Shown here piece after piece: positions 10,531-60,368 of a stretch of 61,005 nucleotides of DNA. This DNA is from a virus, in the IMG/VR virus record IMGVR_UViG_3300042476_000679, positions 1-61,005 of that record; one strand, 5' to 3'. The notes below the pieces were generated by a model that saw only the letters and a program-made list of their open reading frames with translations, ran no database searches and was not told the origin of the DNA. Numbering within the stretch: position 1 is the stretch's first letter; each line of letters opens with the position of its first letter. The translations under genes and the position numbers were made by a program.

Positions 10531-11567
10531 TCACATACTTAAGAAGCAGTTCATATGGAACGCATTCCATGTGTCCAATGCAGTATTTTATCGAATATAA
10601 TTTGGGCATACGAAGTCCATCCAATCAAAAGGCTGATAAAGGAACCATAGTACATAAGGTTATGGAAATATTAGCCTATATTAAACTATATGAACAAGAA
10701 AAGAAAAGCATTTATAATGACGATATTATTGGCGATATTGATATCAAAAAATATAATTTGAACACTATTATCGAACAGGTTTATAACTACTATTCGTCGC
10801 AGTTTAAACATCACCAGTGGAGTTCCAAAGACTATAAAGACTGTCATCTGTGGGTCAATAAAGCGATTGAGGCGCATGGTGGAGCCTTTGATCCAAGGAA
10901 CAGAACCATCTTACAGCCTGAGCAACACTTTGATATTGTAATAAAAAAACCTTGGGCTAAATACTCTTATCAAACAAAAGACGGTATATTAGAAGGTTAT
11001 TTGGCTATAAAAGGCACTATTGATTTGATTACGAGCGTAGACAACAATACAATAGAAATTGTTGATTGGAAAACTGGCAGACGATTAGATTGGGCTACTG
11101 GGGAAGAAAAAACATTGGCTAAATTACAGAATGATCCACAATTGAGAATTTATCATTATGCTGTGAGTCATTTATATCCAAATATGGAACATATAATCTT
11201 TACGATCAATTTTATTAATGATGGCGGAGCATTTAGTGTTTGTTATGATAAAAGCGATTTACCAAAAACAGAAGATATGATTAGATCCAAATTTGAAATC
11301 ATAAAAAATACTACTAAACCACAACTAAATAAAAGTTGGAAATGTACTAAATTATGCCATTTTGGAAAAACAACATTCGAAAATAGTCATGTGTTGCCAA
11401 TACTAGAATATAGGGACGGACAGTTGTGCAAAATTGATACGCTCATGACCAAATGCGAACAAGTTAAACATGATATAGAGTTGCTTGGTATAAATAATGT
11501 AGTTGACACCTATATGACTCCAGGATATACTGTTGGTAAGTACAAAGCACCCGGAAGCGCAGAATGA
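10524..11567 (+). CDS. PD-(D/E)XK exonuclease, Cas4/RecB-like
   Basis: This RecB/Cas4-family nuclease probably trims DNA ends for recombination. Core motifs are KGTIVHKVMEIL (the GxxxH motif), an internal KGTIDLIT and EIVDWKTG (D...ExK-type catalytic site), then a QLRIYHYAV helix (QxxxY motif). Cysteines in CP (near the first ATG) and CTKLC near the C-terminus could be remnants of a Fe-S cluster. The first ATG is at 10569, but the upstream in-frame codons encode ITYLRSSSYGTHSMCPMQYF, which reads like the conserved opening of this family. An AAAGGA site lies 8 bases before an ATT at 10524, so I place the start there; ATA 10527 or ATC 10530 are alternatives. The frame is open to 10509. Confidence 0.75.
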   Translation: MIITYLRSSSYGTHSMCPMQYFIEYNLGIRSPSNQKADKGTIVHKVMEILAYIKLYEQEKKSIYNDDIIGDIDIKKYNLNTIIEQVYNYYSSQFKHHQWSSKDYKDCHLWVNKAIEAHGGAFDPRNRTILQPEQHFDIVIKKPWAKYSYQTKDGILEGYLAIKGTIDLITSVDNNTIEIVDWKTGRRLDWATGEEKTLAKLQNDPQLRIYHYAVSHLYPNMEHIIFTINFINDGGAFSVCYDKSDLPKTEDMIRSKFEIIKNTTKPQLNKSWKCTKLCHFGKTTFENSHVLPILEYRDGQLCKIDTLMTKCEQVKHDIELLGINNVVDTYMTPGYTVGKYKAPGSAE

Positions 11568-13450
11568 ACTATATTCCTCTTCATGCACATAGTATGTTCA
11601 GTTTGCTCGATGGTCTTTCAAAACCAGAGCAAATGGCTGAACGCTGCAAAGAAATTGGCGCAAACGCTTGTGCATTAACAGATCATGGCAATATAGCCGG
11701 TGCTGTGAAGTTTTACTCAGCTATGAAAAATGCTGGAATCAAACCGATTCTTGGTTGCGAACTCTATATTTGTCAGCAAGATCCTAAATTACAGAACAAG
11801 GAAAATAAAAACTTAAGTCATTTCATAGTTCTTGCTCAGAATTATAAAGGGTGGTTAGACTTAATAAAAATAGTGTCAGAATCCAATAAGCCAGAGCATT
11901 ATTATCATAAGCCAAGATTGGATTTAGAACATCTATCAAAATTAAATAGCGGTAATCTTATCGCCATAGTAGGACATCTTGGTTCTCTTTTGGCCGATGA
12001 GATATTGGATAATTACGAATTGAAATCAGATTGGAAAACCTTAGGTATAAATTTAATCAACAAGCTGAAGACTATTTTTGATAATAAAGTATTTCTAGAA
12101 GCTCAACTAATGGATATTGATAATTTACCAGTACAAAAAATATTAACAGATGCCATAAGACAGTTAGGTAAAGAAACGAACACAAAGATTATATGTACTC
12201 CAGACGCTCATTATTGCAGAAAAGAGGACGCTATTGATCAGCGAATTCTACTTTGTAATAATCTAAAAACCACATTTCCGGAAATTAGTCGAAAAATTAG
12301 CCATAACGAAGATGTTCCTTTGTCTGGATTTTTTACATCCGATAACTATCATATTCCTTCACAAGAAGAGATGGCCGCATTACATACCGCACAAGAAATA
12401 GAAAATACAAATTATGTAGCAAATTTGATTGAGGATTATGATATTTTAAGTAAGCCTAAACTACCACAATTTAAGTGTCCAGATGGTTTTGACCAAGATG
12501 AATACTTGAGAGAACTGTGTAGATATGGCTGGAAAACAAAAATAGCACCAGTTATCCCTAAAGAAAATCAACAGATATATTTGGATCGGATAAAATATGA
12601 GTTGGATGTATTACAGGGAGCGGGTCTATCTAGTTATTTTTTAATTGTGCAAGATATAGTGAACTATGTTCGCCAAAGTGGGTGGTTGCCTGGGCCGGGT
12701 AGAGGAAGTGCTGCCGGGTGTCTAGTATCCTATTTAATAGGTATTACTAGTATTGATCCTATAAAATATAATCTGTTTTTTGATAGATTTTATAATTCTG
12801 GCAGAAATACTAAGGATCGTATTAGTATGCCGGATATTGATGTGGATGTTCCGATTAATAAAAGAGAAAATATTATACAGTATATAAAAGATAAATATGG
12901 TCATGATAAAGTATCACAGATGGTAACCTTCAATACCATTAAGGGTAGAGGTGCTTTAAAGGATGTATTAAGAGTATATGGCAATATATCTTTTGAAGAA
13001 ATGAACAGAATAACAAAAAATATTCCAGATGAAGCTAAGATAGCCGACGAATTACAAGAAATGAAGGAAGAAACAGGAGAAGCGTCTATTATACGCTGGG
13101 CTTTAGAAAATAATGCTGATAAATTAAGAGAATGGTGTTATATAGACGAAAATAATGAATTACAGGGGCCGTTGGCAAAAAGGTTTGAGCAGGCTATTAG
13201 ATTAGAGGGAACCAAATCAAATCAATCAAAACATGCGGCTGGTATTGCTATTAGTTCTGAGCCATTAAAAGATATTTGTCCTATGGTTTATGATAGTAAA
13301 AACGAACAATTAATAGCGGGCATGGAAATGCAAGACTTAGAAGGTATTGGTATTATTAAATTTGATATTCTTGGCGTAGCAATGTTGGATAAAATCATGA
13401 CTATTCAAGACTTATTAATACAAGGAGTAAAATATGAAAAAGCAATTTAA
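11564..13450 (+). CDS. dnaE: DNA polymerase III alpha, N-terminal half (PHP and catalytic palm)
   Basis: This is the first half of a replicative polymerase of the bacterial C family, 628 residues. The PHP domain has LHAHS (His7, His9), LTDHG (Asp40, His41) and CTPDAHYC. The palm shows GPGRGSAAGCL, the metal-binding Asp pair in PDIDVDV (Asp426, Asp428) and the third Asp in IIKFDILG (Asp601). All three catalytic aspartates are therefore here. The reading frame stops 27 residues after that motif, before the CFQLES region that follows it in normal DnaE. The remainder is encoded separately from 14297. The gene overlaps the nuclease gene by 4 bases and the next small gene by 17, so the stop looks stable rather than a recent mutation. 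Confidence 0.92.
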   Translation: MNYIPLHAHSMFSLLDGLSKPEQMAERCKEIGANACALTDHGNIAGAVKFYSAMKNAGIKPILGCELYICQQDPKLQNKENKNLSHFIVLAQNYKGWLDLIKIVSESNKPEHYYHKPRLDLEHLSKLNSGNLIAIVGHLGSLLADEILDNYELKSDWKTLGINLINKLKTIFDNKVFLEAQLMDIDNLPVQKILTDAIRQLGKETNTKIICTPDAHYCRKEDAIDQRILLCNNLKTTFPEISRKISHNEDVPLSGFFTSDNYHIPSQEEMAALHTAQEIENTNYVANLIEDYDILSKPKLPQFKCPDGFDQDEYLRELCRYGWKTKIAPVIPKENQQIYLDRIKYELDVLQGAGLSSYFLIVQDIVNYVRQSGWLPGPGRGSAAGCLVSYLIGITSIDPIKYNLFFDRFYNSGRNTKDRISMPDIDVDVPINKRENIIQYIKDKYGHDKVSQMVTFNTIKGRGALKDVLRVYGNISFEEMNRITKNIPDEAKIADELQEMKEETGEASIIRWALENNADKLREWCYIDENNELQGPLAKRFEQAIRLEGTKSNQSKHAAGIAISSEPLKDICPMVYDSKNEQLIAGMEMQDLEGIGIIKFDILGVAMLDKIMTIQDLLIQGVKYEKAI

Positions 13451-13622
13451 AGACTTGACCGATGGAGAACTATTTCAACATAATGGTGAAGAATATAAAA
13501 AAATAGCCGCGGTGAAAGTGAGCTGCTGTCGTTCAATTAACTGTGAACAATCATCAAATGCTCAGCATAAAATTTTTATACCACCATTAACAGAAGTAGA
13601 AGTTAATGATCAACTACAATAA
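13434..13622 (+). CDS. Small conserved-looking protein between polymerase halves, 62 aa
   Basis: This is a 62-residue protein with a strong ribosome binding site (AAGGAG, about 8 bases before the ATG). It reads as a compact beta-rich domain: FKDLTDGELFQHNGEEYKKI, then KVSCCRSINCEQ with three cysteines, then a FIPPLTEVEV ending. Similar short proteins with a KVSCCRSIN-like motif occur, as I recall, in phages and metagenomes; their function is unknown. It overlaps the polymerase half by 17 bases and the exonuclease gene by 17 bases, so it is translated with the split polymerase. A role as a small replisome component is possible but unproven. Confidence 0.65.
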   Translation: MKKQFKDLTDGELFQHNGEEYKKIAAVKVSCCRSINCEQSSNAQHKIFIPPLTEVEVNDQLQ

Positions 13623-14292
13623 AATTTGCGTTTTTGATTTTGAAACCGACGGTTCTGATCCAACGCTATGCAGCCCTGTTCAAATAGCAGCTGTAATGAT
13701 AGATCCAATAAGTTTAGAAATTATTGATGGGTCAGAATTTAATATTAATTTTAAACCAGAGGTTTTAGAAAATAATAATGACTATAAGTATGAAACAGAC
13801 ATATTAGATTTTCATGCTAAGGTCAAAGGATGTAGTAAAGATGACATTTTGAAAGATTGGTATACCTATCCTAAACAAGAACATTCTTGGAATATGTTTG
13901 TTAATTATTTAGATAAATATCATACCAGAAGTTCAAAAAAGAGTCAATTTTCTGCTCCTATTGCTGCTGGCTATAATATTAATAGGTTTGATCTAACTAT
14001 CATAGATAGACTAAGCAATAAGTACGGAAATCTCAATAAGGAAAAAAGAACAGATTTATTTTTTCCAAGAGATGTTATAGATGCAATGAACTTAATGTTT
14101 TATTGGTTTGAACACAATAGTGATCTTAAAAGTTATACTCTTGATACTGTCAGAGATTATTTTGGCATATCAAAAATTGGGGCGCATGACGCATTAAAAG
14201 ACGTAAAAGATACCGCTGCAATTATTATCAGGTTTATGAAATTGCATAGAAATTTAGGACAAAAAATTAAGTTCAAACAAGCTTTTGCATAA
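13606..14292 (+). CDS. dnaQ: DnaQ-like DEDDh 3'-5' exonuclease (proofreading)
   Basis: This is a 3'-5' exonuclease of the DEDDh group, probably the proofreading partner (epsilon-like) of the split polymerase. Exo I is VFDFETDG (Asp11, Glu13), Exo II is YNINRFDL (Asp129) and Exo III is HDALKDVKDTA (His194, Asp199). The 228 residues are close to bacterial epsilon, though I see no clear C-terminal alpha-binding motif. The gene sits precisely between the two polymerase halves, overlapping the small gene before it by 17 bases and lying 4 bases before the next start. RNase T-like trimming is an alternative role, but the position argues for proofreading. Confidence 0.88.
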   Translation: MINYNKICVFDFETDGSDPTLCSPVQIAAVMIDPISLEIIDGSEFNINFKPEVLENNNDYKYETDILDFHAKVKGCSKDDILKDWYTYPKQEHSWNMFVNYLDKYHTRSSKKSQFSAPIAAGYNINRFDLTIIDRLSNKYGNLNKEKRTDLFFPRDVIDAMNLMFYWFEHNSDLKSYTLDTVRDYFGISKIGAHDALKDVKDTAAIIIRFMKLHRNLGQKIKFKQAFA

Positions 14293-14296
14293 TATA

Positions 14297-15913
14297 ATGA
14301 GTAAAAAATATCAATATCAGTGTGGTTGTTGTTTTGATCTTTTGGAAAAAGATGATGCGTCCAAGATTGTTTTTGATTCTAGTATTGATTCAATTAATTT
14401 AGATTGTCAAAAAACATGGGATTTGATTTCTGACGGAAACACCAAGGGGTGTTTTCAATTAGAGTCCAGACTTGGTAGATCAATAGCCAAAAAATTAAAA
14501 CCAGAAAATATAGAGCAGTTATCTGCCCTAATAGCCATTTTACGCCCAGGTTCTCTAGAAGCAATTAGAGATGGTAAAAGTGTTACCAATCACTATATTG
14601 ATAAAAAGAACGCTCAGGAATCCTTAGACTATTTTCACCCTTCGCTAGAGCCGATTTTAAAAACGTCTTATGGTGAAATGATATATCAAGAACAGGCTAT
14701 GGAAATTACGAAGGTTATAGCTGGTTTTAATTTGCAAGAAGCAGATATGTTGAGAAAAGCCATTGGTAAGAAAAAACCGGAAGAAATGGCAAAAGTAAAA
14801 GCAAAATTTTTAGAAGGAGCAAAAAAACTCAACATAGTTAATACTGATGAAGCAGAACAAATTTTTAGCTGGATAGAAAAGAGTCAAAGATATTCTTTTA
14901 ATAAGTCTCATAGTGTGAGCTATGCTATCAATGCTTATCTATCGGCCTATGCTAAAGCTCATTTCCCTAAAATATTTTTTGCATCATATTTACGTTTTGC
15001 TAAAGACAAAATAGATCCTCAGGCAGAAATCAAAGAATTGGTACAAAATGCCAGCGAAATGGATATAACTATAAACACGCCAGATATTCGGAATCTAAAC
15101 GAATTCTTTATATTGCAAAACAACAAAATTTATTTTGGATTAACCGACATAAAGGGAGTTGGAAAGTCTGTGTTTGATAAATTAGTTATCATGTCCCAAA
15201 CTTTTGATCTCAATAATTCAAAATGGCTACAATACTTATGCCTACTGCTACCTAACATAAACTCTACTGCCGCTAAGGCACTTATACAAAGTGGTGCTTT
15301 GAGTTTTATTCCTATGTCTCGCAATAAGATGTTGTTTGAGTATAACATCATGAGCAATTTAACAAAGAAAGAATTAGAAAATATTGCTGCTAATATTGGT
15401 TCTTTTTCTAATCTAAAAGATGGTTTAGAGTTTTTGCTTACTGTACCTAGAATTAATAAGAATCGTAAAAAAACCATTGAAGATTCAATATATTCTTTAT
15501 CTTACCCTCCATATTCTTTGGACGATAGTGCGGAATGGTTAGCCGATTCTGAGGATACACTACTAGGATGCTCAATTACTTGTTCAAAATTAGATATGTA
15601 TGATATTAGTATGACTAATATTACATGCAGAGAGATTAAAAATACAACCATGAAAGATAACCTAATCCTGGGTGGAGAAATAGACAATATTAATATTGTG
15701 AAAACGAAAACAGGAAAAACCCCCGGTCAAGAAATGGCGTTTGTGACTATGATTGACGGAACCGGTGGTGTGGACTCTATAATATTTTTTCCTGAACAAT
15801 ATAAAACATATAAAAATCTTTTATTTATCGGAAATATAATTATTGTCAAAGGCAATAAAACAAAAAACGCAGATGGTATCGTTGTAGAAAAGGCATATAT
15901 CGCCAAAACTTGA
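14297..15913 (+). CDS. dnaE: DNA polymerase III alpha, C-terminal half (fingers, OB fold)
   Basis: This is the second half of the polymerase, 538 residues from ATG 14297; a TTG at 14285 would add four residues (MHNI). A short N-terminal extension with CGCCFDLLE comes first. Then the DnaE-type sequence resumes with TWDLISDGNTKGCFQLES, followed by LRPGSLEAIRDGKS, YGEMIYQEQAMEI, DMLRKAIGKKKPEEM and YSFNKSHSVSYA. The last is the site where cyanobacterial DnaE inteins insert, and it is uninterrupted here. The C-terminal 110 residues form an OB-like domain (MAFVTMIDGTGGVDSIIFFP). No intein motifs flank either half, so the halves must assemble non-covalently. Together the parts are about as long as one DnaE. 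Confidence 0.9.
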   Translation: MSKKYQYQCGCCFDLLEKDDASKIVFDSSIDSINLDCQKTWDLISDGNTKGCFQLESRLGRSIAKKLKPENIEQLSALIAILRPGSLEAIRDGKSVTNHYIDKKNAQESLDYFHPSLEPILKTSYGEMIYQEQAMEITKVIAGFNLQEADMLRKAIGKKKPEEMAKVKAKFLEGAKKLNIVNTDEAEQIFSWIEKSQRYSFNKSHSVSYAINAYLSAYAKAHFPKIFFASYLRFAKDKIDPQAEIKELVQNASEMDITINTPDIRNLNEFFILQNNKIYFGLTDIKGVGKSVFDKLVIMSQTFDLNNSKWLQYLCLLLPNINSTAAKALIQSGALSFIPMSRNKMLFEYNIMSNLTKKELENIAANIGSFSNLKDGLEFLLTVPRINKNRKKTIEDSIYSLSYPPYSLDDSAEWLADSEDTLLGCSITCSKLDMYDISMTNITCREIKNTTMKDNLILGGEIDNINIVKTKTGKTPGQEMAFVTMIDGTGGVDSIIFFPEQYKTYKNLLFIGNIIIVKGNKTKNADGIVVEKAYIAKT

Positions 15914-30168: not shown

Positions 30169-30855
30169 TTATGGACACTTAGAATTAGTTGGTGTAGGTG
30201 TTCTAGTAGGACTATTAGCTGGAGTTCCTGAGTTTGATGGAGGAGGAGTGGTCGTAGGAGTAGGAGATTCTAATGGTGTAAGAGTTGGTGTTGGTGTTAT
30301 TGCGTTGGTTAGTGTTGGTGTTGGTGTTGGAGTTTGACTAAACCCTGGTAAACCTGGCGTTCTGGTACTCGTTTGTGTTGGTGTTCTTGTAGCTGTTTGT
30401 GTTTGGGTCTTAGTAACCGTCCGAGTTGGTGTTGGTGAACTGGTGGCACTTTTAGACAACGATAAACTAACACTAGGCTGCATTGATTTACTAACAGTTC
30501 TAGTATTTGTTGGTGATTTAGTAACAGTAATAGTAGGAGTTAATGATGCGCTTGGGGGTTGGCTACTTGCTGGTGTTGGAGTATTGGTTTTAGTAGCAGT
30601 AATTGCTGGAGTTGCAGAAGGAGAAGCTGATAATCCTGGTGTAGATACAGGAGTATCTGATACAAAAATAGGTGTTAAAAAATTATTTAATGGAGTATTA
30701 GACGGAAATGGTGGCCTAGTATTTGTGGGAGTTTGTGTTACTGCCGGAGTGTTAGATGGTAATGGTGTAGGCGTTCTGGTTCCGGTTTTAGTTGGACCAG
30801 GAGTATTTGATACTGATCTTGATGGTGTTGGTGTGTTAGATGGACATATACTCAT
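30169..30855 (-). CDS. Thr/Pro/Ser-rich mucin-like virion protein
   Basis: This 228-residue protein is almost entirely low complexity: repeated NTPTPS, TPTNTR, SPTPTRTVTK and TPTPTLT motifs with hardly any acidic or aromatic residues. Such extended Thr/Pro stretches are classic O-glycosylation substrates and stiff spacers. There is no signal peptide or recognisable globular domain. It sits downstream of the poly-Ser virion protein and 16 bases before a glycosyltransferase-like gene. A similar Thr/Pro segment occurs in the 57999-60368 product. A coding role is favoured because third-base use varies while the amino-acid pattern is kept, and because the gene is in line with its neighbours. Confidence 0.65.
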   Translation of the reverse strand: MSICPSNTPTPSRSVSNTPGPTKTGTRTPTPLPSNTPAVTQTPTNTRPPFPSNTPLNNFLTPIFVSDTPVSTPGLSASPSATPAITATKTNTPTPASSQPPSASLTPTITVTKSPTNTRTVSKSMQPSVSLSLSKSATSSPTPTRTVTKTQTQTATRTPTQTSTRTPGLPGFSQTPTPTPTLTNAITPTPTLTPLESPTPTTTPPPSNSGTPANSPTRTPTPTNSKCP

Positions 30856-41800: not shown

Positions 41801-44800
41801 TGCTCGTGCTAATAATTGTTGTTTAGCTAATAATTCAGCATCTATTCTTAATTTTTCATTTCCTTCTTTAAGTGCGGCCGCTCTGTCTTTTTCAAGTTCT
41901 TTTTGTATTTGCTCGTCTGATGCTCCAGACTGTTTGCGTTTTTGCACATATGCATCTAGAGCAGCTCTTTCTGATTCTCTGGCTCTAATACCTTCTTTTT
42001 GTTTTTCTGTTAATCTACCATTTGCTTCAGCAGCTTTTATAGCACCGTCTTGATATGCTTTAACTAATGGATTTAATTCATTACTACCAGCCTTTAGACT
42101 ATCATATATTTTACCCAAATCTTCTGTAGAAGTTTGTTTCCCTTGTACTTCAGCAAACCTAGTAGCAGCCTTGATATTACCTTCAGATTGTCCTATTCTG
42201 GCTTTAAGAGCTTCTTGTTTATTGCCATAAACTCCATAAGCAGCATAACCACCAGCAGCGATACCTCCAATAGCCGCACCAATAGCTGTTCCAATCACTG
42301 GGATCATACTGCCAATTGCAGCTCCTGTAGCCGCTCCTGCCAAAGCTGTGCCACCAACATTAACAGCATTTTCTCCTGTCATATAAGAACCAAATGACAT
42401 TGATTCTAGCTCGTTTTGAGCAGTAAGTACTTCGCCAAATGCTTTTTGTGCATTAGCTAGATTAGACGATGTAAATGATGATTCAAGCTGTTTAAATGCG
42501 GTATCTAGATCTCCACTTGATTTAGCAATATTTTCTAATGCATTTGTAATAATAGCTTGATTTTTTGCATTGAAGAACCCTTGGATACCTCCAATAATTG
42601 CTCCACCAATACCACCTATTACTTCTCCAAATGGTAATCCTGATAGTAATTGAGCACCAGCCGCCGCGCCACTACCAGCTCCGCTTAGTGCTCCAAGTGC
42701 TCCTGCTGTATTAGGGTCTGCGGCCATAGACTTCGGTAATGCTTGCTTTAATACATTTGCGCCAATTGCTACTGATGCTCCTACTCCTCTAAATCCTCCG
42801 GCTTTAGCAAAAGTTTGACTTAATATTCCGCCCTTACCCTGAGCAAAATCTGTGGCACCACCAAGAGCTTGTCCTAGTTTTGTTCCTGCTGCTTTTTTGG
42901 CTAAATCAGGAGCCAACTGAGCAAAAAGCCCCATTCTTTGGCCTTCACGGCTTTGTATAAATTGTTGACGCTCAACCATTTTGGCGCCAGCGCCTTGGCC
43001 AAACTGCCTCCTTACCATCTCAATATCTTGATTTGTTTCTTTAGCAAAATTTTGCATGGAAATTTCCATTGCTTCTGCTGCCGTAATAGTTTCTCCAAGT
43101 TTATCTGATAAGGCTTGTTGTGCCGCCTCTAGATCTCCAGCCGCTAAAGCATCTGCTGCTGTTTTAGCTCCTGCGGCCAATTGATTCATACCTTCCTGAG
43201 TAGCAGCCAAATCTGGTCTCAAAGCGACCATTTGTTGTAGTATTCCTTCTTGTTCCATAGCTAATCTACTTTGAGCATCGGCGAGTCTCGTGGCTGCCGC
43301 TACTGCTTCTGCGGAACCCGCTGGTGCTGCTGCAAGCTGTGCCTCTGCTTCTTTTATAGATCCGCCAATTTTCATAGCGGTATCTCTTCTCGTTGCTAAA
43401 CTAGCTTGTGTTTCTGTTAATTTACCACGATAAAATTCTTTATTTTGAAAAGAAGCTTTACCTAGTTGTTGTGCTTGAGCTAATTTAACTGCTTGAACTG
43501 AGGTACCTTGTTGTTCTGCCTTATATCTATAGTATTGTTCATCTGCAAATGCTTGTTGTCTTTTCTTTTTGGCGTCAGGATCCTCTGGACCCATACCAAA
43601 TGGTGAAGTTTTGGCCTGTTCTCTTTGTAAATCTGCTGCTTGTTTAGCATCATAAAATGGATCTGTAGCTCTTGCTTTATCACTACGAAATTGTGCAACT
43701 TGAGCTTTTTTCTGTTCTGCTATTTGTTCTGGTACAGCCGCTTGTTTTTGTGCTACCTCTGTTTTGAGTCCGGATTCTAGAGACTGTTTAGCATCGGCTA
43801 CCGCTGCTCTATACTCTGCTATAACAGCAGATACATCTCCACCCTCACTTTTTACTTGTTTATATCGTTCACTATAAAAAGCTTTGAGACTCTGGCTTTC
43901 TTCATTATATAATTGTTGATATTTTGCTTTAGCCTCTTTAGCTACAACCGCCATAGCTGATTGAATTTGAGTATCAAAAGCTTTGGTATCAGTAGCTTTT
44001 CTTTCTTCAATTTGTGGAGTTTGTCGGCCGACAACATAATCTTGTACAGCTTTTTGAGATGCTGCTTTAGATTCCGCTGTAAGAGTTTCTTTAGCTTGTG
44101 ATTTTTTAAGAATACGCGCACTAATTATATTAGTAAATATATCGTTTAATTCATCACTACTAATTTTCCCTTCAAAAAATTCTTGAGATGCCTGCTCTTC
44201 TAAATTATTATAGAACTCATCTATTTTTTGTTTTTGTTCTTTATATAGTTTTCTATAGTTGGATATAACCTCTGCTTCTATTTTTGCAATATTTTCGGCG
44301 CCTTGTGGCCTAGCCATCACATCTCTTTTTCTACTTGCACCAGCACCAAAGTCAGGTCTTGGCGCTCCTACCGCACGAGCTTCTTCTCGTGTTATATCAC
44401 CACGAGATCGTGCAGTATAAGCTTCTTTTCTTCTTTTTCGTTCTTCTTTACTTAAGCGTCCTACATTACCACCATCCTCAAATCTTTGAATACCACCAAC
44501 AACACCACCTTTGTTATACCCTTTCACACCAATTTTATCTGCTTGATTAAGTTTATGTAATCTACTATAACCAATACGTTTAGCAGCGTTTTTATTAACA
44601 ACAAATTCTCCAGGAGTTAATAGTGCTGGGACAGTATCTTGTACTGATCCCCCAATAGCAAATTTAGCAAAATAATTCCTAAAGTTAGCTCTTGCTTTAC
44701 TAAGACCTCCCTTTACATCTCTTTTTACTTCTGTGGGAATAGCTGGATCAATACCAAATAAACTGGCTGCACTACCCAAACCAGAGGCATAGTCTACAGA

Positions 44801-47752
44801 TCTATCGTCTAGTCTACCAGGATTAGCACCGGCTTTCGCTAAAATAGCTTCAATCATATATCCTTCTAAATTGCCCAAACCCAAAGCTTCTTTTGTAGGA
44901 TCGTCCAGTGATAGTGGAGATCTACCATACAAGGCTTGTGTACCACGACCTAATGCTTCGTCGATTTCTTGTCTAATACGATAGATTTCTTCTGCTTTTG
45001 ACTTGGGTAATGATTTAGTATTAATTTCTAATATTCGTCCAGCAATATCTTCATAATGCTTAGTGTCAATATCAAATGGAAACATTCCAACCAATCCAAC
45101 TTTTGTAGCACTAGCTTTTTCTTCTTCTGTAAATATTCTAGCTCTCTTTTTTGTACTCTCAGCAACTTCTAATAATCCTTCTATTGCAGATAAGTAAGGT
45201 CCTGATCTATTACTTAATAAGAAGTTTTTACTAAATATTTCTTTACTCGTTACAGGCTTACCAGTACTACTTATAGAACCTAAGACTTGATTTATACGAT
45301 CGTTTCCACCAACTAATCCTCTTACAGTTTGTGCAGTTCCTAATTCTGTTACCCATTCATAAATTTCTTCTGCTGTCAGTGGCTCTGCTGTGCCACCTTC
45401 CTTAAATTTTTGTACTAGTCCACCCAAAGAGAGTTTACTAAATTTGCTTAAACTTTTTGGATAATATGTGTATATTCTTTTATTAGGACGATATAATCCA
45501 GCTCCAATTAATTTTGCTAACATGGTTTCATTATTGTTTCCTTTTATAAAACCAGTTTCTTGATCTCTAGCATATCCTTCATCTGGTCTTAAAAATTTAG
45601 CCTCCCCTGGTTTACTAGGATAGTCTAAAAATTTATTACCACCAGCTATGGATAATCCATATTTTTTACCAACAGCAATTTCAAAATTTTTCCAATTGGG
45701 TATAGTAGGAGATTTTTGTTTACGTCTCCTCATATCTTTCAAAATATCATTATCATCAACTGGTATTGGTTGAATATTTGCTGCATATTTTTGATTATTG
45801 TCTACAATACCAGATAATGATCTATAAGTATTTTTTAATTTTTTACCAGTTAATTCTACTTTACCACCAAGAGCATATTTATTTATTTGATGTAGATTTC
45901 CAGCACCAAGTTTTTCAACAGCTTTCTTTCGTATAACAAATTCTCCTGGCATTAATTTTGCTGGCACAGTATCTCTGTTTCCACTTCCCGGCACAAGACC
46001 ACCGCGAGCAAAACCCATAACTTTGCCACCACCATTGAGTGTTGTTGCTCCTCTAGATCTGATAGTATTTTCTAAAGAATTTACTGTACTAGTTAATCCT
46101 CTCAAAGCATCAGTATTAAGTCTTATGGCATCAGCAGCTTTAGCTGTCGCTTCACTAGTTTGTTTTTCTTTAGCGCCACTAAGGCTTTCTCCTATATTTT
46201 TACCTGTGGCACCAGCACCACCACCTTTTGTGATACCACCAAAAAATCCTGTTCCAAATTCGCCCAAAGCTTTAACACCCTTAATTGTAGCTAAAATAGC
46301 TAAAAATGGTAGAATGGGCTTAAAAGCACTCGCCAAACTAATAAATGCGCTAGTTAATCCTAAGACAATCGTAGTGATCGCTTTAAAGGTTGTACTCTGT
46401 CCTATGTCTCTAAAAAGTGCTAAAAACTGTTCGCGCACTTTCGCTATTTGATTTGCTAAACTTTTCTGAGCAGTAAGTTGGGCATCTGTGAGGCTAGACT
46501 GACCCGTTTGTGCAACCTTAAGGGCCTTCTGTGCTTCTGCAAATTGTTGAATCAATGGAATAACTTTACCAATTTGTCGAAATCCACCAAGTTCTTCTAC
46601 TATTTGTGTAAATCTTAAGTCTCTAGGATCTAACTGCTTTAATCCCTCGCTTAATCTTCTAGTAGCTTCATATGGACCAACGAATTTCCCTTCTAAGTCT
46701 GTAAGAACAACACCATATTCTTTTAAGGCTTCAATAGTTCCTTTACGTTGAATTCTGGTAAAAATAGTTCTTAATCCAGTAGCAATGGTCTCTGCGCTTT
46801 CACGAGTAGTAGCACGAACACTAGTAAATACAGAAATAAATTCATTTAGCGCATCTTTACCCTCACTAACGCCCTTACTAGCTGAAGCAAACACACCACC
46901 GGTTCGTTGAATAGCAACGATAATATCTCGTGATTCTACAGCGAATGCCGCAGCAACAGCATTAATACTACCTAGTGCTGCCTCTAAATCTTTAGCTTGC
47001 AAACCAAACTGTCTAAGTGCTGCAATTGCACCTTCTGTGGTATCTGTCAAATTATCGAATGATGGTGCCAATTCTGTCTTAGCTAAAGCCGCTAGTGCTA
47101 TACGGGTTTCCTCAGCATTTAAACCAGCCTGAGCAAGGGTACTAGCAACAGTTGTCAAGCTTTCACTACTCACACCTAAACTAGTAGCTAGATTAGTAAT
47201 TTGGGCTTGTAGTTGCTTTAAACCAATTTCGCTTTTACCGGTAACTTGTTGTAGTTTAACTAATTCTCTATCGAAAGTTACAAAAGAAGTAAACGCACTG
47301 TTAATAGCATTGATAACTTTAAAAACCACATTTGTAACAACGCTAAAAGCAGCAAAACGCCTAATTGCTAATGCGCCCTGTTTGCCAAACTCTTGCATTT
47401 CTGTTGTGGCTTGTTTAATATTTTTACTAATAGCCTGAGCATTAGCTGCTGTATTTGTCATTGATACAGATACTTTATTATTAACAGAACCGGCGTTATT
47501 TAAGGTACCAGATAGTTGTTGCATCGCTTTATTTAATGTGATAGTATTGTCTCTAGCCGCAGCCAAAACAGCATTCATAGACTTTAATTTTGCAGAAACG
47601 GAGTCTATGGATCTTGCTGATTGAGCATTAAGTTTAACATCTACATTTGCACTAACTGTACCCAACTCTCGCCTAATTTGTGCCACAACAGGCTTAAGGT
47701 TTGATGGGCCTTGTAAGTTAATTTGTGCTGTTAGATTAAAACCTTTGGCCAT
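38876..47752 (-). CDS. Tail tape-measure protein with embedded candidate nuclease domains
   Basis: This is the phage tail length ruler (TP901-type), 2958 residues. The N-terminal 500 residues contain the family block: FDRELVKLQQVTGKSEIGLK, LGVSSESLTTVASTLAQAG, FTSVRATTRESAETIATGL and FTRIQRKGTIEAL. Residues 580-1095 are unlike a rod: two copies of an FAxGGxV...DTVPAxLxPGEFV motif (580-630 and 1031-1095) and a GG linker at 775-787 flank two compact regions (631-774 and 788-1030) with D...ExK-like patterns. The rest is helical and coiled-coil-rich, interrupted near residues 1685-1730 and 1785-1830 by glycine-zipper hydrophobic segments (GGIGGAIIGGIQGFF). The C-terminus is Gln/Ala-rich. The ribosome binding site is weak and an attenuator lies just upstream. 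Confidence 0.9.
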   Translation of the reverse strand: MAKGFNLTAQINLQGPSNLKPVVAQIRRELGTVSANVDVKLNAQSARSIDSVSAKLKSMNAVLAAARDNTITLNKAMQQLSGTLNNAGSVNNKVSVSMTNTAANAQAISKNIKQATTEMQEFGKQGALAIRRFAAFSVVTNVVFKVINAINSAFTSFVTFDRELVKLQQVTGKSEIGLKQLQAQITNLATSLGVSSESLTTVASTLAQAGLNAEETRIALAALAKTELAPSFDNLTDTTEGAIAALRQFGLQAKDLEAALGSINAVAAAFAVESRDIIVAIQRTGGVFASASKGVSEGKDALNEFISVFTSVRATTRESAETIATGLRTIFTRIQRKGTIEALKEYGVVLTDLEGKFVGPYEATRRLSEGLKQLDPRDLRFTQIVEELGGFRQIGKVIPLIQQFAEAQKALKVAQTGQSSLTDAQLTAQKSLANQIAKVREQFLALFRDIGQSTTFKAITTIVLGLTSAFISLASAFKPILPFLAILATIKGVKALGEFGTGFFGGITKGGGAGATGKNIGESLSGAKEKQTSEATAKAADAIRLNTDALRGLTSTVNSLENTIRSRGATTLNGGGKVMGFARGGLVPGSGNRDTVPAKLMPGEFVIRKKAVEKLGAGNLHQINKYALGGKVELTGKKLKNTYRSLSGIVDNNQKYAANIQPIPVDDNDILKDMRRRKQKSPTIPNWKNFEIAVGKKYGLSIAGGNKFLDYPSKPGEAKFLRPDEGYARDQETGFIKGNNNETMLAKLIGAGLYRPNKRIYTYYPKSLSKFSKLSLGGLVQKFKEGGTAEPLTAEEIYEWVTELGTAQTVRGLVGGNDRINQVLGSISSTGKPVTSKEIFSKNFLLSNRSGPYLSAIEGLLEVAESTKKRARIFTEEEKASATKVGLVGMFPFDIDTKHYEDIAGRILEINTKSLPKSKAEEIYRIRQEIDEALGRGTQALYGRSPLSLDDPTKEALGLGNLEGYMIEAILAKAGANPGRLDDRSVDYASGLGSAASLFGIDPAIPTEVKRDVKGGLSKARANFRNYFAKFAIGGSVQDTVPALLTPGEFVVNKNAAKRIGYSRLHKLNQADKIGVKGYNKGGVVGGIQRFEDGGNVGRLSKEERKRRKEAYTARSRGDITREEARAVGAPRPDFGAGASRKRDVMARPQGAENIAKIEAEVISNYRKLYKEQKQKIDEFYNNLEEQASQEFFEGKISSDELNDIFTNIISARILKKSQAKETLTAESKAASQKAVQDYVVGRQTPQIEERKATDTKAFDTQIQSAMAVVAKEAKAKYQQLYNEESQSLKAFYSERYKQVKSEGGDVSAVIAEYRAAVADAKQSLESGLKTEVAQKQAAVPEQIAEQKKAQVAQFRSDKARATDPFYDAKQAADLQREQAKTSPFGMGPEDPDAKKKRQQAFADEQYYRYKAEQQGTSVQAVKLAQAQQLGKASFQNKEFYRGKLTETQASLATRRDTAMKIGGSIKEAEAQLAAAPAGSAEAVAAATRLADAQSRLAMEQEGILQQMVALRPDLAATQEGMNQLAAGAKTAADALAAGDLEAAQQALSDKLGETITAAEAMEISMQNFAKETNQDIEMVRRQFGQGAGAKMVERQQFIQSREGQRMGLFAQLAPDLAKKAAGTKLGQALGGATDFAQGKGGILSQTFAKAGGFRGVGASVAIGANVLKQALPKSMAADPNTAGALGALSGAGSGAAAGAQLLSGLPFGEVIGGIGGAIIGGIQGFFNAKNQAIITNALENIAKSSGDLDTAFKQLESSFTSSNLANAQKAFGEVLTAQNELESMSFGSYMTGENAVNVGGTALAGAATGAAIGSMIPVIGTAIGAAIGGIAAGGYAAYGVYGNKQEALKARIGQSEGNIKAATRFAEVQGKQTSTEDLGKIYDSLKAGSNELNPLVKAYQDGAIKAAEANGRLTEKQKEGIRARESERAALDAYVQKRKQSGASDEQIQKELEKDRAAALKEGNEKLRIDAELLAKQQLLARATKEVALATESLLDVYRRVTAKAQRFSDEIGDMLNINQATINSLSGKSEVSKVDRRGAERVLGNISAYSPQEVQAATQEMVGKLGGGTEAQALGKQAEAAKFLQDKLPAMLRAPDADAGKIMDTLRSQFQGMGLNSDAINQMLKDVEVQLGADREGGLGTLASEIEKGGIDQISSTAQEALKTMQNLAKTYNDALQQSIDLQNQYNESIMQADEYLRKAGSIRLTAELDLARALGRSPTLRELNQPFDFEIKDLTKRLIPGGTTDPTEIANGIIAATRQNTQLEAANVALGTTGMQGAVGANSGAELLKEQQANIAAIGANNVAINQSRQALERLANDGTKAANALSKIQEEQQALEGFAAFAQNVFTAEPQQLAKMEIEAAALNAAQAAGPEFMQSRFNRQQAFAGLEQAKGFLTPQEFKDIQADLTRKSFEAQGFKGGDVVKKIGGKEFTLDQLIERMKGGVSELDPNVVAYREAVDTQIKANEELKRLEEIKSLQIQEAMTGLVTFLANEFPRILAEAVKESRADAATQPETGAAPTEAQKNQAAANKKYEEAGKKKQQIDAKIATEEKKLKEAESKVGWEQGASTEVARRKRKIRELQEQSDQEQKNMDEAKSEFVASSSTVAEEEKTRQEAKAAQAAEEKKAREAKATEAKKQSEAARMGNRPTVIQAPPAPGTAAATVTRPQTQANTQPQTYGTTVSSVPMVSLDTLERSRADKQAEIIKKEKTLKAAKIAAYAAGTTETSPTLAAAQASFDSAKQDLASINEQITVEKQRLAAIEQQAAIAQQSQQQQSEQLNPYASGDAQLSAQMSSGVDPNHPFVQRLRQPETPQPVPVPSNLPQPVEYTRQVQTAETGGTAVNVTNGEATNTMTTGQLLTLDPASLKGLNDFNTTFGSYVDKLVGFQFPVIPDKIELNHNVQIDMTGAASITTLEKRLQELAVALVMPKIEELRNETSAATEGRVKGSGAKGVSK

Positions 47753-53501: not shown

Positions 53502-54821
53502 TTATATTCTTTCTACAACAATATCGCATTTTTCGAACGCTGTCCATTTGCCCAGAAATTTTTTATTGTCACCACTGTCTTTAGCAAAAAACATAGCTAT
53601 TTCAGAATCTTTATGGGCAGCGCCTATCACAACTATTGTTGGTATATTATCTATTAGTCTTACACTCCAGCGTCTTTCGCACTTAGCCTTACCTTGTCCT
53701 ATAATACCATTATCTAATAATTCTAATGTTCTACTGTCTAAATTAACTCGTTCATATCTATACTTACCTATAAATGTTTGAGCATATTGTTTTTCTTCAT
53801 TATTCATTTCATCCCACGAGTAGATAGTTCCACTCCAATATTGATCTCTTACATCCTTGGCTTCTTTAATTAAATGATGGTTGAGATGGTTGCCAGGTCC
53901 AGTACCACTAAACATAAGTTCTTTACCTTGACAAGCGTGTTGAAATACTAACGCTCCAGACAGATCGTACTGTAATATACAGGGATGTCTCCAACCAGCC
54001 CGTCTTGAAGGAATAGCATAATCAGATCCGCACTTTCTCCATGCTAAATGAAAAGTGGATTTGTCTCCATATACAAATTTATAAAACCAATCAGAATGTT
54101 CATTCATCCACATTGTTACACTAAGTTCTTTTAAACATTTTTCTTTATTGATCATATACTGACCGGTTTCGAAATCTGGCTCGTCTCTATAATCCAAACC
54201 AACATTTTCCCAACAAATTGGCGGCAACCATTCTTTTCTTTTGTTTGGCGGTAGATCTGGCCAAAATATAGCACCTAACTCTTTGTACTGAGAATAATCA
54301 AATAAGTATGTTGGATCTTTAGACGGAATATTATCAGCGTCTAAATATAAAACCTCTTTAAATGATGAATGTAGCGTTGATAATGCCTTTAGTTCCCAGC
54401 CATTGAGTATTCTAGGTTGGATATTATGTTCTTGACAATATTTAATTGCATTAATATAGCGTATACCGAACATATCGCACATATTTTTCATATTATTATC
54501 CATTTCATATTCATCTAAATACCAAAATTCTACAGGCAACTGACAACCTAATTTTCTTAAAATATAGAAACAGGCAAAGCCGCAACCAAAATATTTGGCT
54601 CCACCAGCACCTATAACTATTCCTCGTTCATGTTGATATGGCTGTATGGGAGAATATGTTTTTTCTAATAAATCATCTAATATTGATATGTGAGCTAATT
54701 GAACTTCTTTAAGTCCTGTCCAATTTTGAGGATATCCATTTGTTTTTCCAGAGTTTAATATTTCTATCCATCTATTAGTTTGTTTAAATAAATCAACTAA
54801 ATCTTTATGATTATTACTCAT
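53502..54821 (-). CDS. Glycosyltransferase, Mnn1/mannosyltransferase-like
   Basis: This 439-residue protein resembles the mannosyltransferase-3 (Mnn1-like, PF11051) family: GIVIGAGGAKYFGCGFACFY, a LKALSTLHSSFKEVLYLDAD block (Asp161, Asp163, the DXD motif), then LGAIFWPDLPP and FETGQYMINKEKCL in the family order. The C-terminal 130 residues include SRTLELLDNGIIGQGKAKC and a VRLIDNIPTIVVIG region. The family is best known in fungi, where it adds alpha-linked mannose, and bacterial relatives are common in glycan clusters. The acceptor and the sugar are unknown. It overlaps the metallopeptidase gene by 8 bases. Confidence 0.78.
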   Translation of the reverse strand: MSNNHKDLVDLFKQTNRWIEILNSGKTNGYPQNWTGLKEVQLAHISILDDLLEKTYSPIQPYQHERGIVIGAGGAKYFGCGFACFYILRKLGCQLPVEFWYLDEYEMDNNMKNMCDMFGIRYINAIKYCQEHNIQPRILNGWELKALSTLHSSFKEVLYLDADNIPSKDPTYLFDYSQYKELGAIFWPDLPPNKRKEWLPPICWENVGLDYRDEPDFETGQYMINKEKCLKELSVTMWMNEHSDWFYKFVYGDKSTFHLAWRKCGSDYAIPSRRAGWRHPCILQYDLSGALVFQHACQGKELMFSGTGPGNHLNHHLIKEAKDVRDQYWSGTIYSWDEMNNEEKQYAQTFIGKYRYERVNLDSRTLELLDNGIIGQGKAKCERRWSVRLIDNIPTIVVIGAAHKDSEIAMFFAKDSGDNKKFLGKWTAFEKCDIVVERI

Positions 54822-57998: not shown

Positions 57999-60368
57999 TT
58001 ATTCTAGGAATGCTGGACAGTCTGTTGTAGTAATAATTAATTCTTGATTATTCACACTATGTATCTTTAATACTCTAATATTTGCTATTCTATATTTTAG
58101 CGTATTATTTTCAATATATACGTCGGTAATTAAATTCAATTCTTCTGATCCATCATAGGTCGAACAAGAGTCTACAGAAACTGCTGGTGGACCAGGATCA
58201 TTATCGATTAACACATTGAAATCACAACTATTAATAGTATCTACGTTAACAGACACAATGGGATTATTGATGCTTAAAATTTTAAGACTATTTTTTGTAA
58301 TAATTAAATGCCCATTAACTATTTGTATATCTGAAACTATGCTTACCGTATCATAACAATATGGTTCATAATCTATCGGAGCAAAGTTAATATTTACTGG
58401 AGTAAAATTATTAAAATCATTAGCACATTCTCGTGTTGTAATAACCGACTGTGTCGAGTAACTAGAAACTTCGAACGTATCAAAGATTGCAAATTCTTTA
58501 ATAAGATTACCACCATTTAGATTAATACCCTGTAAACCTCTGGCAGCTTGAGGTATTGGTATTGGAGGAGGTGGTGGAGGAGGCAGGCAATTAACTTGAC
58601 ATTCGCAAGGACTTATGCACTGGGTGGCATCATTTACATCTGCTGGTCTAATAGTTCCTACAAAACCAAGAAAACTAGTTGGTTCACAACCATCTGAATC
58701 TATATCTCCTAAGCCCGTTGTATCTAAATCAAAAGTGCCAATTCCACAAATAATTTGATGTCTTACAGCATTAAATTGAGCATCAACACATTCGATATCT
58801 ATTTCTTGAACATAAGATGGACAATCTGGTTTTATCATTGTCCAACTAGCTTTCCATAAATTATCACTATTGTCTTTAGTTAAGGATACGGGGCCTGATG
58901 AAACATACCCTGTAGTTATTCCATATCCATATAACATTCCAAGAAATATACTATCTGGTAAATTATCACATATATTACATCCACTTCCGCTACCACTTTC
59001 ACTACCACATATATTTAAAAAGTAAAGGTCAGACGAGCATTCAACGCATCCACTTTCGCTGCCACTATCACTGCCACTGCCACTCTCACTACCACTTTCG
59101 CTGCCGCTTTCGCTGCCGCTTTCGCTGCCGCTTTCGCTGCCGCTTTCGCTGCCGCTTTCGCTGCCGCTTTCGCTGCCACATATATCGATACTATATGTAT
59201 CTGAAATACAATCTTCACATCCGCTCTCACTACCACTTTCACTGCCACTCTCACTACCACCACAACTACATCCCTCAAAGAAAAATGGCTGATTATCAAC
59301 ATTTCGACTTCCAGAAGTGTTAAATTCAATACATCCAGTTACCATTAATTCCCATGCAGTACTTCGATGTGGTGCATCTACAGACATATAAAAATTACAT
59401 GGTAAATTAAATAATGGTGGAAGGTCTATAAAATCTGGGCCTGTGGTAACAAATCCAGTAGTATAGATTATATTGCCATATTGATCATATATTGTAAAAC
59501 AGTCTGGTATATTATATGTTTTAAAGAACACCTGGAGCTGTGGACAGCATGTTTCCGGACTAGGTATTGGTGTGGGCGTAGGCGTATTCGTCGGTGTTGC
59601 TGATACTCCAATAGTTGGTGTAGGAGTATTCGTCGGTGTTGCTGATACTCCAATAGTTGGTGTAGGAGTATTTGTCGGTGTTGCTGATACTCCAATAGTA
59701 GACGTTGGAGTTGACGTAGGTGATCGAGTCAGGGTCTGAGTTCTTGTTGGTGTTCTAGTTGATGTTCTTGTAAGAGTGAGAGTACGAGTAGGAGTTTTTG
59801 TTGGTGTCGCAGTAAGTCCTGGGGTGGGCGTTAGAGTAACAGGAATAGAATTATTAACGCCAATTTTTTTCCACATAGTAAATAAATATTCATTATCTCC
59901 CAAACCAGCAGGATTGGGTTCGCCATAGAGCTGAAATATCGGATTTGATCCGCTGCTATTATAAACAACAGTCATATCTTTACATTGACGTATTTGTGGC
60001 AAATAGTCTCTGTGACAAATTGTTTGAATATAACCATTAGGATTATCTATTTGTGGAGGTGGATTTATCCATTTTTTATAATCCCATATGATTGCTAAAT
60101 ATCCTGTAGAAGTATTAACAATACCATACGATCCAACACCATTACAGTATGGACAAATTTTACCAAGAGCAAAAGGAACAGGTCCACCAGACTTATATTT
60201 ACCAGAAGATTTTTTTAAACTAACATCATATATACAATTAGGACAAATATTAGTATTTGTTATGCCAAAATTAAAATCACATCTTGTTGTTAATCCATTA
60301 TTAGCTAATAATAAATTAATTTGTTTATTATATATTGATTGTAATAGTGAAAAATCTGGATAGGCCAT
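57999..60368 (-). CDS. Neck-like protein fused to Thr/Pro and GSES repeats
   Basis: This 789-residue protein has a zinc-type N-terminus: ICPNC (Cys42, Cys45) and ICPYCNGVG (Cys72, Cys75), with [16 protein letters not shown] before it and [13 protein letters not shown] after it. That part looks like a virion adaptor. About residues 180-265 are Thr/Pro repeats (three copies of a 14-residue unit, [14 protein letters not shown]), and residues about 370-460 are GSES runs flanked by cysteine clusters (GCEDC, GCVECS). The C-terminal 325 residues are beta-rich and unknown, with a poly-Pro run near residue 605. It could be an elongated decoration or whisker. It follows the connector-like gene. Confidence 0.65.
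59101..59172. repeat. Six perfect 12-bp repeats encoding GSES
   Basis: The unit CTGCCGCTTTCG (plus strand) occurs six times in a row without a mismatch; on the minus strand it encodes Gly-Ser-Glu-Ser. Identical DNA copies suggest recent expansion by slippage or unequal recombination, and length would change the protein by four residues per unit without a frameshift. Imperfect copies flank the block. Confidence 0.9.
59590..59715. repeat. Three near-identical 42-bp repeats encoding Thr/Pro units
   Basis: Copies begin at about 59590, 59632 and 59674 with a period of 42 bases; they encode the 14-residue unit [14 protein letters not shown] on the minus strand. The copies differ by only a few bases, and the third diverges at its end. 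They lie in the Thr/Pro region of the 57999-60368 product. Confidence 0.85.

Follow-up and report, generated by a model that had tools for sequence, protein, structure and literature searches.

Phages and conjugative elements encode polyvalent proteins, in which many enzymatic domains are combined in one large polypeptide thought to be injected together with the DNA (Iyer et al. 2017, PMC5512222). In the Thermus phage P23-45, an active RNA polymerase resides in the N-terminal part of the tape-measure protein (TMP) and is borne in the virion within the full-length TMP (PMC10770324). Single TMP-enzyme fusions are already known, as are injected multi-enzyme proteins among other virion and conjugation proteins. 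A survey from 2023 could not confirm genuine recent mosaicism of TMPs (PMC10684548). Among open-licence papers, we found no report of phage TMPs with islands of exchangeable enzymes, whether PD-(D/E)XK or of another kind.

The window studied here, that is, the whole stretch of DNA analysed, is a 61-kb virus record. It encodes a 2958-aa protein that is identified as a TMP by matches of its N-terminal part to several tape-measure families of PHROG, the best with E 9.9e-17. An earlier sequence-only reading had marked in this protein two copies of a DTVPAxLxPGEFV linker and a central GG linker, and these are present where it had placed them (Table 1), with the PGEF motifs at residues 602 and 1047. 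The same reading had proposed two PD-(D/E)XK nuclease domains between the linkers, and the residues it assigned to them, Glu691, Asp710 and Glu717-Ala-Lys719 in region A and Glu963/Glu968, Asp987 and Glu1008-Val-Lys1010 in region B, are likewise all in their places. The island enclosed by the linkers is internal in the TMP (residues ~600-1050 of 2958) and contains regions A and B only. The distance from linker to linker is ~450 residues in the window phage and up to ~1900 in its relatives, where module boundaries are marked by the same type of short GG linker, with the pattern xxGGxIQKFxxGG.

Table 1. Features of the TMP gene in the window and carriers of one module pair among its relatives
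Feature	Positions	Strand	Residues and remarks
TMP with cargo island, 2958 aa	38876..47752	-	Open reading frame; PHROG families; N-terminal core conserved in relatives
Linker 1, GFARGGLVPGSGNRDTVPAKLMPGEFVIRKKAVEKLGAGNLHQINKY	45875..46015	-	Residues 580-626; same place in nearly all relatives
Region A, slot-1 module, PD-(D/E)XK-like	45431..45862	-	Residues 631-774; includes Lys747
Glu691 codon	45680..45682	-	
Asp710 codon	45623..45625	-	
Glu717-Ala718-Lys719 codons	45596..45604	-	
Short GG linker between modules A and B, LGGLVQKFKEGG	45392..45427	-	Residues 776-787
Region B	44663..45391	-	Residues 788-1030; helical part, three-strand sheet (~883-914), then core
B core	44666..44872	-	Residues 961-1029; Glu968, Asp987, Glu1008-Val-Lys1010-Arg
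Linker 2, FAIGGSVQDTVPALLTPGEFVVNKNAAKRIGYSRLHKLNQADK...GYNKGGVV	44498..44668	-	Residues 1029-1085; closes the island in relatives too
Carriers of the P-loop kinase-/NMNAT-like pair			L017, L023, L026, L029, L033, L051, L075, L091, L097, L101-L104, L111

The linker motif GTDTVPAMLTPGEFVVN is repeated further along some TMPs, namely L034 (2638, 3719, 3904 aa) and L099 (2222, 2425 aa), and also occurs in unrelated TMPs from Gordonia, Synechococcus and Corynebacterium P1201. Elsewhere in the window, the DNA polymerase is split into two ORFs (11564-13450 and 14285-15913; window 11564-15913), between which lies an RNase_T exonuclease ORF (13606-14292, E 8e-10). A mannosyltransferase-like gene (53502-54821; PF11051, 2.6e-33) belongs to the minus-strand block that has the TMP, and phrog_15511, of unknown function, is matched by two distant ORFs (30169-30855 and 57999-60368).

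The conserved N-terminal core was aligned and used as the query for relatives, which yielded 422 viral-contig stretches encoding a relative. The best 80 of these 422 loci were kept, and removal of near-duplicates left 73 TMPs, 65 of which were long enough for judging. Four further relatives lie on contigs of bacterial metagenome-assembled genomes and are probably phage sequence. Queries with region A or region B alone matched few contigs. The TMP core of the relatives is 64-81% identical to that of the window, and the median pair is 71% identical. No close relative is present among 50,697 phage records searched, the TMP core being at most ~26% identical to the best of them; the phage clade represented by the 422 contigs therefore appears to be uncultured.

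The islands of these TMPs have very little sequence in common (median 6-mer sharing of 0.15% over 2080 TMP pairs), and two pairs of relatives illustrate how the contents are replaced. L013 and L015 are 91% identical at the DNA level over aa 1-636, that is, just beyond linker 1; there follow ~630 aa of cargo with no detectable DNA similarity, and the match resumes at aa 1266 with 86% identity. The same exchange pattern is seen in L092 and L093, which are 97% identical in the core, yet one contains an ADP-ribosyltransferase (ART)-like module and the other an M1 module. Linker 1 is the exchange breakpoint in both pairs. The sequence-only reading had mentioned polymorphic effector domains as one option, and had suggested that related tape measures be compared for regions exchanged between retained linkers. 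This comparison was clearly positive in both pairs, and polymorphic effector-like cargo is well supported because the cargo of L013 and L015 has been replaced between near-identical flanks. The whole inter-linker region is a polymorphic cassette island in this clade. In the relatives there are several modules per TMP, in varied order, and the reading frame stays open. The cargo is also under purifying selection: between the window and L002, dN/dS is ~0.17 in region A, ~0.25 in region B and ~0.04 in the B core, where the constraint on the cargo is strongest, versus ~0.15 in the N-terminal part of the TMP.

Several kinds of enzyme-like modules are found in the relatives' islands. Among the relatives' islands, an ART domain (PF03496) scored above its cut-off (E 2.5e-6). 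SNase-like domains are present in 11 TMPs, with D-G-D, R and D-x-YE invariant; they match PDB thermonucleases with E values from 1.6e-4, and among the matches listed 60/60 are SNases or thermonucleases. A P-loop kinase-like module and an NMNAT-like module are always paired, in this order, in 14 TMPs (Table 1). In profile searches the NMNAT-like module resembled HIGH nucleotidyltransferases (1e-6) and nicotinate-nucleotide adenylyltransferase (4.5e-4), and the P-loop kinase-like module resembled the thermoresistant glucokinase 4eun (0.0025). Presumably, this pair is reminiscent of NAD salvage fusions such as NadR. With SNase-, P-loop kinase-, NMNAT- and ART-like domains, the relatives combine several unrelated enzymatic domains in one polypeptide, as polyvalent proteins do. 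Other modules were named on motifs alone: a HAD-like module (DFDxTL...TARP...DD) in 24 TMPs, 23 of which have it immediately upstream of the B core, a GNAT-like module in 12 TMPs, two families of zincin-like modules with HExxH in 9 and 4 TMPs, and a protein-kinase-like module in 2 TMPs. Neither the HAD-like nor the GNAT-like profile found a supporting match in PDB.

Slot 1 of the island, occupied by region A in the window, contains A1-type, A2-type or SNase-like modules across the TMPs. The A1 type of region A is confined to three TMPs, those of the window, L002 and L008 (59-75% identity), and Glu691, Asp710, Glu717 and Lys719 are kept in both of the latter. In an alignment of region A with more distant members (A7), E, D, K and K are invariant, the distant members having been picked via the D..ExK pattern, so that D and ExK were partly selected for. 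Because A7 is partly circular, the A2 family provides fairer evidence: it was found by unsupervised HMM iteration, and the linker-free slot-1 seeds L028 and L102 converged. In the 14 TMPs with A2, the E, the D and the (E/D)x(K/R) motif are each present in 14/14, together with a downstream Lys. The order of the elements, as read off the sequence, is helix-like (E), PID, xEVKF, helix-like (LxxKLLRYRL) and a strand-like end. In a single weak hhalign comparison, A1 and A2 were matched with P 8.3e-5 and a probability of 60.7%, with Glu and ExK aligned and Asp out of register. The A2 profile scored 22.1 against UPF0102, a family picked for comparison only after the motif had been seen, versus a maximum of 14.8 in 100 column-shuffled controls (P 0.006). 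Mrr_cat, used as another comparison, gave no match, nor did the window's own A1 alignment alone, and region A matched nothing in Pfam, PDB profiles, PHROGs or PADLOC. Pfam, PHROGs and PADLOC also gave nothing for A or B when whole islands were the query. The AlphaFold2 model of region A (pLDDT 45) provided no usable fold. SNase-like domains occupying slot 1 elsewhere favour a nuclease role for this slot. Together with the signature residues, the element order and the weak similarity of A2 to UPF0102, this gives moderate support to the view that region A is probably a PD-(D/E)XK nuclease. For this half of the sequence-only reading, the residue conservation held up and a related family lent some profile similarity, whereas the region's own profile searches gave no match.

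The B core was detected by HMM in 57 of the 65 long TMPs (58 cores in all). Asp987 is conserved in 58/58 and Glu968 in 51/55 (Gln in 4); position 1008 is D in 35, E in 20 and Q in 3 cores, and position 1010 is K in 42 and T in 16. The cores in which Thr replaces the lysine of ExK, including those of L021, L049, L066, L086, L088, L093 and L095, are mostly of the form D-x-T-R and keep the Glu and the Asp. Loss of the D/E/K residues in close relatives, which the sequence-only reading had named as an argument against its own proposal, thus affects the lysine of some B relatives and spares E and D. The AlphaFold2 model of region B (pLDDT 86, pTM 0.64) is composed of strands and helices in which the nuclease core fold was not recognized. 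In a Foldseek search against PDB and viral models, nothing was found at E<=0.001 and no PD-(D/E)XK nuclease was among the weak matches listed; Pfam, PDB profiles, PHROGs and PADLOC gave no match to region B. The model may contain a permuted or very divergent nuclease core. The near-universal acidic residues are suggestive only, and region B is possibly a divergent PD-(D/E)XK domain; its membership is not established, because fold and profile searches found no match and the lysine was lost in one subgroup.

We favour, with a probability of roughly 0.55, the interpretation that the island consists of linker-bounded cassettes exchanged by recombination, and that A and B held in it are most likely an enzymatic payload. 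Recombination at or near the linkers would swap modules between phages. TMPs leave the tail in the course of infection; this one would do so at its start, and the cargo, preceding or accompanying the DNA, might reach the envelope or the cytoplasm of the host. There, the modules would target nucleic acid, nucleotides/NAD or proteins of the host, so that defence is disabled or the cell is taken over. The linkers, the exchange, the conserved residues and the profile matches of several modules in relatives are observed, whereas we infer the catalysis, delivery and target of the island modules, the delivery from TMP biology and by analogy with P23-45, whose TMP carries a working virion RNA polymerase. 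A point against a payload is that cargo in the tail tube must be in a small, extended or unfolded state. No candidate for an inhibitor or immunity gene was found beside the TMP, the neighbours being without informative matches. In a broader version, which in our estimate falls a little short of even odds, the TMP would be a general effector-loading platform with fixed linkers and swapped nuclease-, ART-, NMNAT-, kinase-, acetyltransferase- and peptidase-like modules, each phage delivering its own set via the tail, either before the DNA or together with it.

The E...D...ExK order, on which the sequence-only reading had relied for both regions, is present in A and B and is not above chance by order alone: it appears in 54% of shuffles of A, in 74% of shuffles of B and in 36% of 144-aa windows from the rod. 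The bare order is cheap in charged sequence, and the weight therefore rests on conservation in relatives. The residues are conserved in 58 B cores and in 14 A2 modules despite low identity, which makes it very improbable that they are chance matches within ordinary TMP sequence. A more substantial alternative, although still an unlikely one, is that B, perhaps together with A, is no active nuclease and serves the TMP in structure or DNA handling, for instance as a spacer, as a chaperone-binding site or as a pseudo-nuclease gripping DNA during ejection, and that the other modules alone vary freely. A free payload would hardly be expected to be as widespread as the B core, and both the Thr-type cores and the failure of a well-scored model to match any nuclease fold are consistent with such a role. 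It sits less well with the retention of Asp987 and Glu968 although most other sequence changes, with the location of B among enzyme-like modules inside the exchange linkers, and with the few TMPs in which no B is detectable.

The near-universal presence of B, as well as the presumed tail position of the modules beside the leading DNA end, would also suit nuclease-like modules that are not host-directed effectors and instead have the DNA of the phage itself as their target or work in the producing cell, for example in trimming, circularisation or exclusion of a second phage at ejection. We consider this improbable given that unrelated nuclease types alternate in slot 1 and that the co-resident ART-, NMNAT- and P-loop kinase-like modules fit host or nucleotide targets better than DNA processing. 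PD-(D/E)XK homing enzymes are known, and the cassettes do move between linkers, so that the modules could be pictured as selfish mobile units, homing-endonuclease-like, spreading among TMP genes while bringing the phage no advantage. Such units would hardly account for the purifying selection on the cargo, or for islands with several modules in varied orders and an open frame, and there is very little to be said for them. The homing reading was rejected since most modules are other enzyme types, not nucleases.

If the payload interpretation is true, the exchangeable internal island of the TMP would be a new delivery route for early counter-defence or takeover enzymes. It would also bear on why the sequence mosaicism of TMPs is hard to interpret, and the linker signature could be searched for new phage effectors.

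Among protein families, UPF0102/YraN (PF02021) resembles A2 in the order E, then ID, then ExK and in the weak profile match, but in contrast to this and other PD-(D/E)XK families, none of the modules scores as a nuclease with Pfam models, and B has no profile match. Like the MuF polymorphic toxins of temperate phages, the island TMPs are phage multidomain proteins with variable domains, which in MuF proteins are toxic; the carrier is a different one (PMC5576092). Polymorphic toxins exchange a C-terminal variable domain as a cassette, whereas the cassettes exchanged here lie in an internal island. Effectors of the Sle1 type, from a phage-tail-like particle, similarly combine a TMP-related carrier with variable functional domains; these are C-terminal domains in bacterial contractile injection systems, unlike the internal islands in phage genomes described here (PMC13277306). 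The payload types are similar to those of polyvalent proteins, which include ARTs, GNATs, kinases, peptidases and nuclease-like domains. However, polyvalent proteins are head-packaged, portal- or MuF-linked, or associated with conjugation, in an account silent on the tape measure (PMC5512222), whereas here a TMP is the carrier, its linkers are fixed and the slot for exchange lies inside it. Finally, as in P23-45, the N-terminal part of a giant TMP includes an enzyme, here a predicted one; in contrast to the one RNA polymerase of a few related phages (PMC10770324), many different modules are exchanged as cassettes in the TMPs of the present clade.
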